Of a stretch of DNA of 47,834 nucleotides, positions 42,355-44,846 are shown piece by piece. The notes below the pieces were generated by a model. The model had not been told where the DNA came from, ran no database searches, and worked only from the letters and a program-made list of their open reading frames with translations. The translations under genes were made by a program, and so were the position numbers. The stretch is taken from NCBI GenBank assembly GCA_016876035.1, contig VGOE01000009.1:1-47834 (forward strand). The letters are read 5' to 3'. This stretch comes from Chloroflexota bacterium. Its GTDB lineage: Bacteria; Chloroflexota; Dehalococcoidia; UBA2247; RBG-13-53-26. Numbering within the stretch: position 1 is the first letter of the stretch; every line of letters begins with the position of its first letter.

Positions 42355-42399
42355 TCTCTAGACAATGGTGGCTGATTCATCGGCCATGCTTCATCAACC
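42355..42399 (-). repeat. Boundary repeat of RAYT unit, copy 1
   Basis: 45 bp that match 42941-42985 at 41 of 45 positions with no gap. The copies are 586 bp apart and bracket the intact RAYT gene; each contains the ATG-x-CCGATGAATCAGCC start region of a RAYT gene (here followed by an immediate stop). A weaker third copy of its edge lies at 43206-43224. Confidence 0.8.
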
Positions 42400-42973
42400 C
42401 CCCACATTTTGCATTGTCAGGATTTTCCTCGTCTAATTCCCACTTCAAAGGGTTATTCATGATATATTCTCTTATTTCCTTCAGCTCGTTTTCATTTCGT
42501 ATCACATGTTCGTAATAATTGCGTTGCCACACCGCGGCTCCCGGCGTCTGACGTGTGGCATTGATGCGTCTAGTGCTCACCGATTTGAATAAACGGACGA
42601 TCGTCGGAATGGAACTCGATGTCGGTTTGCCGAATCGTTCCAACGTAGGGGCACGTTGCAACGTGCCCCTACCACCGTCACGCAACACAACAATTCCATG
42701 CACGTGGTTCGGCATTACCACAAAGGCATCCAATTCCACACTGGGGCGAAGGATGGCTGCTTGTAACCATTCCTGGTGCACGATTTCCCCGTATTCGTTC
42801 ATTCGTACTTCCCCATCGGCTATTCCACCGAATAAACACTCCCGACCTTGTGTGCAAACGGTTATAAAATACGCCCCTGCTTGCGAATAATCGTAATTCT
42901 TTAATCGGATAGACCTCCGATGGCATTTCCCAGGTTCGTATCTCTGGACAATGGTGGCTGATTCATCGGACAT
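42377..42973 (-). CDS. REP-associated tyrosine transposase (RAYT, Y1 HUH type)
   Basis: 198-residue IS200-like (Y1 HUH) transposase of the RAYT kind. The N-terminal RRSIRLKNYDYSQAGAYFITVCTQGRECLFG is the family start, the HUH motif is VVMPNHVHGIVVL and the catalytic Tyr lies in VWQRNYYEHVIRNENELKEIREYIMNNP. RAYTs mobilise short palindromic REP elements. Here the perfect 28-bp palindrome of the region (42645-42672) lies inside the gene, in frame, and encodes about nine residues (RGTLQRAPT) in the linker after the HUH motif. The gene seems intact. It overlaps the remains of a second RAYT copy at 42975-43210 and is bracketed by a 45-bp repeat. Confidence 0.92.
   Translation of the reverse strand: MSDESATIVQRYEPGKCHRRSIRLKNYDYSQAGAYFITVCTQGRECLFGGIADGEVRMNEYGEIVHQEWLQAAILRPSVELDAFVVMPNHVHGIVVLRDGGRGTLQRAPTLERFGKPTSSSIPTIVRLFKSVSTRRINATRQTPGAAVWQRNYYEHVIRNENELKEIREYIMNNPLKWELDEENPDNAKCGGLMKHGR
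42645..42672. repeat. REP palindrome a, inside the RAYT gene
   Basis: Perfect 28-bp palindrome: GTAGGGGCACGTTG followed by its exact complement. Identical to palindrome c at 43275-43302 and one base off palindrome b at 43067-43094. Confidence 0.92.
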
Positions 42974-42985
42974 GCTATATCAACC
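42941..42985 (-). repeat. Boundary repeat of RAYT unit, copy 2
   Basis: Second copy of the 45-bp boundary repeat (see 42355-42399), overlapping both the start of the intact RAYT gene and the end of the deleted one. Confidence 0.8.
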
Positions 42986-43210
42986 TCCTTTGTCTTGCAT
43001 TATCATGGTCTTCTTCATCCGACTCCCCTTTTGCAGGATTGTCCACAATGTATTTCCTCATTTTGCGTAGGGGCACGTTGCAACGTGCCCCTTCACCCAA
43101 CAGACACCGCCTATCTCTGTACGCAGATAGATAGTGATGGAATAGGCCCCCGCTTGCAAATAATCGTAATTCTTCAGTCGGATAGACCTCCGCTGGTATT
43201 TCCCCAACAT
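42975..43210 (-). pseudogene. Deleted second RAYT copy
   Basis: The 5' part reads MLGKYQRRSIRLKNYDYLQA then GAYS, matching GKCHRRSIRLKNYDYSQAGAYF of the intact RAYT; the 3' part reads RKYIVDNPAKGESDEEDHDN ending in a stop, matching REYIMNNPLKWELDEENPDN. The central 350 bp, including the HUH and Tyr motifs, are missing and replaced by palindrome b plus a short stretch. It is a non-functional deletion product of 236 bp. Confidence 0.8.
43067..43094. repeat. REP palindrome b, inside the RAYT pseudogene
   Basis: Same 28-bp palindrome with one mismatch (CCCCTTC instead of CCCCTAC). It sits at the deletion junction of the RAYT pseudogene. Confidence 0.9.
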
Positions 43211-43274
43211 GTCATATCAACCTTCCGGGCATTATAGCGGTTTCTTTCGGGCTTTTCTCGTCGGTCTGGTCTCA

Positions 43275-43302
43275 GTAGGGGCACGTTGCAACGTGCCCCT
43301 AC
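43275..43302. repeat. REP palindrome c, supplying the hsdS stop codon
   Basis: Perfect 28-bp palindrome, identical to palindrome a. Its edge GTAGGGGC, read on the minus strand, gives the TAG at 43299-43301 that ends hsdS. Confidence 0.92.
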
Positions 43303-44846
43303 CTATGCCTTCGTAGGGGCGAACGTCTGCTCGTCCCTACATTTGATTTTTCTCTCTGTATTCTCTTCAACAATTCTTCTGCTGGCTCATCGGTGGGGTC
43401 CTGGGGCACCAGCTTCCCCTCGAAGGCCCTTTTGAGGATGCTCTGGCGTAATCTTTCCGCTTGTTTAAGGCTTTGCTCCACTACCCTTTCCGCCTCGTCA
43501 GCAATAGAGAAGCGGCGCTCAATCTCGTCTAAGATTCTTGCTTGTTCTAGCAGGGAGGGAAGCGGAATAGGGAGGAACAAGACTTTAGAAATGCTCAGCG
43601 TATATAGTCCAGATGTTGAACTCGCCACGCGGGTGATTTGTTCACGTCCATCAGCGGAAAGAAGCCAATAGAGAGCATATCTGCTAATCTCTGTGGGTTG
43701 GAACCTTGCTTTGATTATGTGATTCTGATGGACACACGGGGATATGCCTCCATCCCACAGGGCCACACGACCTATCTGGTCACGGCTCCCATTTCCTTCA
43801 ACGATTAACAAATCCCCTTTCTTCAAGGTGACCTTCTTAACCTCGTCTTCCTTGACTCCGATACTTCTTATGTCATTCAACTGTAGCTCTCCTGCATAGA
43901 CATTGGCGACCCGAAGATATGGCATCTTTCGGGAATATATGTCTCGTTTTGAACTCTTGGTAAGACCTCCACTCACCTCCCCAATCCCGCCAATATTTGC
44001 CCACACCCACCCCTCTGGCAAGGTGGGCAGGTTCGATGTGTCCGTGTAGGGGCGGGGTGACCTCGCCCCTACGGGGGCATTTCTGTCGCGCTCCTTCTTT
44101 ATCCGTTCCAGGAGCACGGAGGCAGGCTCAAGTTCGCCTTTGCGGGCTTGTCGCCACTCGGCGGTGAGCTTCCCTTCAAAGGCGTCTCTAAGGACCGCCC
44201 GGCGGTAAGCCTTCAGTTGCGCCTTGACCTTCTTCAGCACCGCCACGCCGGCATCCAGTCTGGTGAAAAGTTCCTCAATCTTGGCCACGATGCGGTGCTG
44301 TTCCGGGAGGGGAGGAAGGGGAACATGTATTTCTTGAACCTTTGATAGTTGAAGCGAAGGCAATGTTGTAGCATGTGTCAATTCCTTAAAGTCAACTGTC
44401 TTGAGCCAGTAATACAACCATTCACTTGGGATTCTGCCTAGTGGCATAGCTATTCCAATATGGCTCACCACATACATATCTCTCCCTAAGATGGCTCGCT
44501 GATTCAGGAGAGTCGACATCCCGCTTTTTGTAAATAGAACCGCCCCCTTAGGAACCAGCCTTAGCTTTCTTATCGCCATATCGTTCAGATGGTTTCTCGT
44601 ATCATGGATGTAGACGTTATTTTCTAAACTGCCCATATCTTGAACCCGGACAAACGGGTACCTGCCATCTATAAAGCAGTTTTCTCCTTGGGGAGCTGGG
44701 TTTCCAGCCTCAAGCGTGCTAATCTCCCCCAGCCTCGTCCACACCCACCCCTGCGGCAAAGCGGGCCGGTCTGATTTGTCCCCGTAGGGGCGACTCGGCG
44801 AGTCGCCCCAAAGCGACCTGCCCCCGCCAATCGCTTCTTCTCTCAT
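43299..44846 (-). CDS. hsdS: Type I restriction enzyme specificity subunit HsdS
   Basis: 515-residue DNA-recognition subunit with two target-recognition domains. TRD1 starts at LPQGWVWTRLGEISTLEAGN (about residue 32) and ends with PLPPLPEQHRIVAKIEELFTRLDAGVAVLKKVKAQLKAYRRAVLRDAFEGKLT; TRD2 starts at LPEGWVWANIGGIGEVSGG (about 275) and ends with PIPLPSLLEQARILDEIERRFSIADEAERVVEQSLKQAERLRQSILKRAFEGKLV. The conserved coiled-coil spacers follow each. Linker peptides at residues 13-22, 258-267 and 503-511 are encoded by REP-like palindromes (f, e, d), and the stop codon lies in palindrome c. The start overlaps hsdR by 4 bp (ATGA). Needs HsdM for activity; only a scrap of hsdM is seen. Confidence 0.95.
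   Translation of the reverse strand: MREEAIGGGRSLWGDSPSRPYGDKSDRPALPQGWVWTRLGEISTLEAGNPAPQGENCFIDGRYPFVRVQDMGSLENNVYIHDTRNHLNDMAIRKLRLVPKGAVLFTKSGMSTLLNQRAILGRDMYVVSHIGIAMPLGRIPSEWLYYWLKTVDFKELTHATTLPSLQLSKVQEIHVPLPPLPEQHRIVAKIEELFTRLDAGVAVLKKVKAQLKAYRRAVLRDAFEGKLTAEWRQARKGELEPASVLLERIKKERDRNAPVGARSPRPYTDTSNLPTLPEGWVWANIGGIGEVSGGLTKSSKRDIYSRKMPYLRVANVYAGELQLNDIRSIGVKEDEVKKVTLKKGDLLIVEGNGSRDQIGRVALWDGGISPCVHQNHIIKARFQPTEISRYALYWLLSADGREQITRVASSTSGLYTLSISKVLFLPIPLPSLLEQARILDEIERRFSIADEAERVVEQSLKQAERLRQSILKRAFEGKLVPQDPTDEPAEELLKRIQREKSNVGTSRRSPLRRHR
43313..43340. repeat. REP-like palindrome d, C-terminal coding end of hsdS
   Basis: GTAGGGGCGA-N8-TCGTCCCTAC, imperfect. Encodes VGTSRRSPLR at the HsdS C-terminus. 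Confidence 0.75.
44046..44072. repeat. REP-like palindrome e, between the two HsdS halves
   Basis: GTAGGGGCG-N9-CGCCCCTAC. Encodes VGARSPRPY just before TRD2. Its flanks resemble the flanks of palindrome f. Confidence 0.85.
44784..44809. repeat. REP-like palindrome f, N-terminal coding part of hsdS
   Basis: GTA-GGGGCGACTCG-GCGAGTCGCCCC: the 23-bp core GGGGCGACTCG-x-CGAGTCGCCCC is a perfect inverted repeat. Encodes GDSPSRPYG just before TRD1. Confidence 0.85.

Follow-up and report, generated by a model that had tools for sequence, protein, structure and literature searches.

Other REP-associated tyrosine transposases (RAYTs) bind, cleave and join single-stranded REP hairpins (PMC8266576), and the RAYT gene examined here carries a perfect 28-bp palindrome, GTAGGGGCACGTTGCAACGTGCCCCTAC, inside its own reading frame. 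Is this palindrome a substrate of the protein that it helps to encode, and why is it there? The window, as the whole analysed stretch of DNA is called here, comprises 47,834 nucleotides of a Chloroflexota contig, in which the chance expectation for perfect 28-bp palindromes is 0.0002 (47,834 x 4^-14). An earlier note had placed the palindrome in frame after the HUH motif, giving RGTLQRAPT, and translation confirmed this: the ORF is uninterrupted throughout and reads ...PNHVHGIVVLRDGG-RGTLQRAPT-LERFGKP... (Table 1). The palindrome, GTAG...CTAC, fits the double-foot REP pattern GT[AG]G ... C[TC]AC, and its hairpin as single-stranded DNA has z = -3.3 against dinucleotide shuffles.

Table 1. Features of the RAYT locus, in window coordinates
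Feature	Position	Strand	Basis
RAYT (REP-associated tyrosine transposase) CDS, 198 aa	42377..42973	-	NCBIfam, Pfam and fold match
Presumed catalytic tyrosine codon, Y170	42464..42466	-	Alignment pairs Y170 with E. coli RAYT Y115
Helix 122-141, co-varies with palindrome core; aligned to DNA-binding helix of E. coli RAYT	42551..42610	-	
Linker, residues 100-119, predicted disordered; houses the palindrome here and in other members	42617..42676	-	AF2 pLDDT
Perfect 28-bp in-frame palindrome, GTAG at both ends ('double foot' REP type), encodes RGTLQRAPT	42645..42672	.	
HUH motif codons (PNHVH, residues 88-92)	42698..42712	-	Alignment, H90 and H92 invariant
Degenerate tandem RAYT copy lacking its middle, with palindrome b between the start and end regions	42941..43237	-	blastn
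Palindrome b, 26 of 28 bp identical, in degenerate RAYT copy at internal deletion junction	43067..43092	.	
Palindrome c, 28 bp identical to internal one, upstream of RAYT pair	43275..43302	.	

The protein matched the NCBIfam family REP_Tyr_transpos barely above threshold (80.6 bits, cut-off 80) and also Pfam Y1_Tnp, and the HUH motif, the presumed catalytic tyrosine and RAYT-type sequence are all present. In the AlphaFold2 model the HUH strand (residues 90-97) is followed by the linker and then by helix 122-141; pLDDT exceeds 90 in the core and falls to ~50-60 in the linker (about residues 100-120). The top fold among the matches listed was 4er8, the E. coli RAYT with a bound REP hairpin (VIA-align Z 12.7, rmsd 2.9, 131 aligned). 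When aligned with E. coli RayT from the MG1655 record, the window protein has S131 opposite K82 and Y170 opposite Y115, which we take to be the catalytic residue of that enzyme. The window RAYT was assigned to subclass 2.4 by its features, namely a REP-bearing variable insertion after the HUH strand (beta3) and a double-foot REP.

The core of the window palindrome, CACGTTGCAACGTG, was found (at most 3 mismatches over 22 bp) at three sites in the 2.53-Mb assembly, all inside 655 bp; the genome therefore has no dispersed population of this REP, and that reading was rejected. The pattern GTAGGGGC-N-GCCCCTAC occurs at five genome sites, two within the two RAYTs of this genome and the other three close to them. 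In the second RAYT, which lies on another contig, the same linker holds a palindrome with another core. Upstream, the window RAYT is flanked by the GTAG-type palindromes b and c, and no matching palindrome was found within 300 bp downstream of it (locus L145). The identity between the internal palindrome and palindrome c, reported in the earlier note, holds over 28/28 bp. Recent exchange, as the note proposed, does not follow from this identity, since the same 28/28 bases occur in a Nitrospira RAYT (L065) that shares 63% identity in the compared protein and 63.6% in the DNA outside the linker. The degenerate copy was recovered by blastn in two pieces, 43204-43141 (89%) and 43063-42941 (73%), and the locus resembles a tandem array that has decayed.

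Other features of the surroundings were also recorded. The start of another RAYT copy lies directly 3' of the intact gene (42355-42393). The neighbouring ORF at 43299-44846 (minus strand) encodes an HsdS, a type I restriction specificity subunit (Pfam Methylase_S), with a REP-like palindrome in frame at 44046-44072, ahead of the second recognition half (aa 259-267, ...APVGARSPRPYTD...); an imperfect REP-like palindrome at 43313-43340 encodes the final HsdS residues.

Relatives were sampled from Chloroflexota genomes and from 80 loci of many other groups, including Nitrospira, Aquaspirillum, Nitrosomonas, Electrothrix, cyanobacteria, Chlorobiaceae and Bacteroidota, giving 204 distinct RAYTs, of which 193 are open through the linker. 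The search at the same linker that the earlier note had proposed found a palindrome of at least 9 bp in 129 of these 193, while 20 have one elsewhere in the gene, corresponding to densities of 8.4 per kb in the linker and 0.27 in the rest of the gene. Codon-shuffled linkers contained a palindrome in a mean of 3.6 of 193 cases (maximum 7). As judged by this sequence census, the linker of this RAYT subfamily is a hot spot for palindromes. The 19 open relatives with linkers of at most 36 nt all lack an internal palindrome, most such linkers being too short for a full copy, and several of these RAYTs are closely related to palindrome carriers. Among 45 long linkers without a palindrome, 24 retain a GGGGC or GCCCC motif. 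Because palindrome-free short-linker RAYTs exist and decayed copies are common, the protein can do without the internal copy.

Palindrome-bearing loci differ in copy number and spacing, and 14 linkers contain two or more palindromes, with mutual mismatches of 1.6 of 8 versus 4.6. The linkers of L086, L091, L152 and L073 hold two or three palindromes each, with related yet different cores, as though former specificities of one RAYT had been preserved in them. An internal palindrome is missing from four divergent short-linker relatives (L034-L037), three of which have flanking palindromes; the flanks of L034 and L037 carry a different palindrome family, GGACAG...CTGTCC, with no internal copy.

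The 129 linker palindromes comprise 66 different half-cores, and the core inside a gene tends to be the core beside it: the internal core equals that of the locus's own flanking palindrome in 67 of 88 loci, 55 of them exactly, against a permuted mean of 10.3 and a maximum of 17. Among the matches listed, dispersed palindromes also agree with the internal cores of their own RAYTs in genomes G037 (39/48) and G040 (21/25), a level reached by none of 2000 random sets of linker cores, and those of G031 and G032 follow the same trend weakly (p about 0.05-0.08). Dispersed REPs lie within long open frames in 15/22 and 14/21 cases, compared with 0.88-0.89 for random positions; at this GC open frames run long by chance alone, so that these fractions do not settle the share of REPs in real genes. 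Separately, dispersed palindromes of G032 and G031 with the cores CGTTCAATTGAACG and CGCAGCATGCTGCG showed no fit to the RAYT linker cores found there, and the matching RAYT may have been lost or may lie outside the assembly.

Palindrome and predicted DNA-reading helix vary in concert across 126 relatives. Core distance is correlated with protein distance, linker excluded (Mantel r 0.40; highest of 2000 permutations 0.15), and when it was regressed on protein regions residues 120-142 took a standardised weight of 0.513, the N-domain one of 0.061 and the C-domain and rest one of 0.076. In pairs more than 42% different, the leading co-varying columns were 124, 132, 128, 141, 127 and 120, whose spacing corresponds to one helix face, together with 76 and 72; a rank test of helix columns versus others, with columns taken as units, gave p = 1.6e-6. 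The core of the RAYT with the nearest helix, chosen among partners at least 45% different elsewhere, was within 1 of 9 bases in 49% of cases, compared with 13% for prediction from the whole N-domain and 3% from size-matched N-domain columns. For 42 RAYTs with no detected linker palindrome, flank cores were predicted within 2 mismatches in 40% of cases from the helix versus 17% from the N-domain (p = 0.007). Individual residues pair with individual bases (R76 with G at the innermost position, 50/54; S128 with G at position 3, 18/18; F132 with G at position 5, 20/20; R124 with T at position 4, 9/9), the cells of this table being related sequences, not independent events. The members share ancestry, and a strict independent-pairs test on the tree found too few well-supported branches, with only 1-3 pairs on them. 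Single-linkage core classes on the tree were discarded, as one cluster took 100 of the cores. In the alignment the window helix falls on the helix of E. coli RAYT that bears K82, a residue on helix alpha3 that contacts a bulged REP base; for perfect-palindrome REPs, an alpha3 contact had been a guess in the literature (PMC8266576).

The window gene is, we consider, likely to be a RAYT of the subclass 2.4 (RAYT group 4) kind whose internal palindrome is a REP recognised by its own protein, lodged in the flexible linker before the DNA-reading helix. The claim of the earlier note that the gene contains its own substrate is very probably right, judging by the flank match, the linkers of relatives, the helix co-variation and the dispersed REPs (two genomes clearly, two weakly). 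Most likely, the linker tolerates this cognate substrate, which is lost from it and seeded anew in the course of time. The window RAYT would then act on the palindrome that it carries, processing REP hairpins as single-stranded DNA, and REP copies would land near the gene or arise there by duplication of old copies. The linker, close to where copies arise, may be the sole site within the gene that tolerates an in-frame REP copy, and the decay and replacement of old linker copies would hold the internal palindrome to whatever the enzyme currently recognises, with a tightly linked enzyme and substrate as the outcome. The gene might also be cut within itself, or the copy might serve self-control or be a source for spreading, as the earlier note proposed. 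We infer re-insertion into the linker from the arrays and remnants; multiple similar linker palindromes and GGGGC/GCCCC remnants are as expected from turnover. As palindrome-free members are close to palindrome-bearing ones, we think that the copy most probably owes its presence to turnover and not to an essential function. Binding or cleavage of REPs by a subclass 2.4 member was not found reported in the literature searched.

A palindrome that stays near-perfect in many distant members although the remaining gene has diverged, and whose single strand folds into a strong hairpin in the window gene, might instead be regulatory: selection would keep it as a hairpin, in the DNA or the mRNA of the gene, with which the RAYT or the host limits RAYT expression. 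We regard this as unlikely in view of the 19 short-linker relatives that do without it, several of them near carriers, the 24 of 45 palindrome-free long linkers in which only a motif is kept, and the variable copy number and spacing at palindrome-bearing loci. The match of core and helix could also reflect physical linkage instead of recognition if both moved jointly by recombination, the helix codons of the window gene starting some 35 bp from the palindrome. Distant pairs with the same core argue against such a cassette: their same-codon frequency is 0.413 in the helix and 0.407 elsewhere, saturated at synonymous sites, and with no excess of identical helix codons the match is not accounted for by a recent transfer of both together. 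In addition, residues 68, 72 and 76, more than 70 bp away on the opposite side, co-vary with the core too, and the helix predicts flank cores even where the linker has none. Cassette exchange was rejected on the synonymous-site saturation, and we give it very little credence.

Smaller still is the chance that an abundant REP entered a tolerant linker passively, independent of enzyme specificity. REPs within unrelated genes are known (PMC3733652), and the adjacent HsdS gene has its own in-frame REP-like palindrome, but the core tracks the helix of the enzyme and its own flanks and not other cores, and this genome is without a dispersed REP of the window core. If selection acted on the peptide encoded there (RGTLQRAPT or its counterparts), the DNA palindrome would be a by-product; in favour of this, 118 of 132 identical-core pairs share one codon phase, a pattern that also fits long inheritance of a single insertion. 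Within each of the other 14 pairs, which fall into five core classes, the reading frame differs, the peptides vary with the core and the segment is predicted to be disordered; we disfavoured this reading on the differing frames and consider it close to negligible.

REPs in frame inside tnpA-REP genes, generally between HuH and Y, are described as unique to subclass 2.4 by Quentin et al. (2018; PMC6006769), and the basic fact is thus not new. What is seen here agrees with that account of subclass 2.4, or RAYT group 4, in the position of the in-frame REPs, the variable insertion domain after beta3, the 'double foot' REPs with GT[AG]G and C[TC]AC ends, the flanking REPs and the phyla-wide scatter. 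It differs in that the insertions were regarded there as probably of little impact, and the main text yielded neither an own-flank match nor a recognition helix. The additions of the present comparison of sequences are the linker census, the match of the core to its own flanks and the co-variation of core and helix; no account of the latter two was found in the main texts of the papers searched.

Knowledge of how RAYTs choose their REPs is confined to E. coli and two group 3 systems. Here the palindrome within a gene points to the probable substrate of its RAYT, also in genomes that lack a REP population, and the comparison indicates the same helix alpha3. RAYT specificity thereby becomes an experimentally testable question, with a candidate recognition code to test. 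Since each gene of the subfamily would carry its own substrate as a built-in label, matched helix-hairpin pairs are probable in thousands of genomes, and we lean, if slightly, towards a residue-to-base code that can be read from them and that would allow one to predict, or to alter, which REP an uncharacterised RAYT recognises.

The TnpA proteins of the IS200/IS605 family (IS608, ISDra2) share the Y1 HUH fold and hairpin recognition with the window RAYT and differ in that their hairpins lie at the element ends; we know of no internal hairpin of the RAYT-linker kind in these elements. The E. coli TnpA-REP (RayT, subclass 2.2, 4er8) offers the closest solved fold among the matches listed, with GTAG-tagged REPs, an HUH motif and a tyrosine in common, and differs in its imperfect, bulged REPs, its C-terminal tail and its short linker. 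Intragenic REPs and the Rickettsia palindromic elements are likewise short in-frame palindromes within proteins (PMC3733652). Their hosts are unrelated genes, whereas the host gene in the window likely encodes the enzyme for the very palindrome that it contains.
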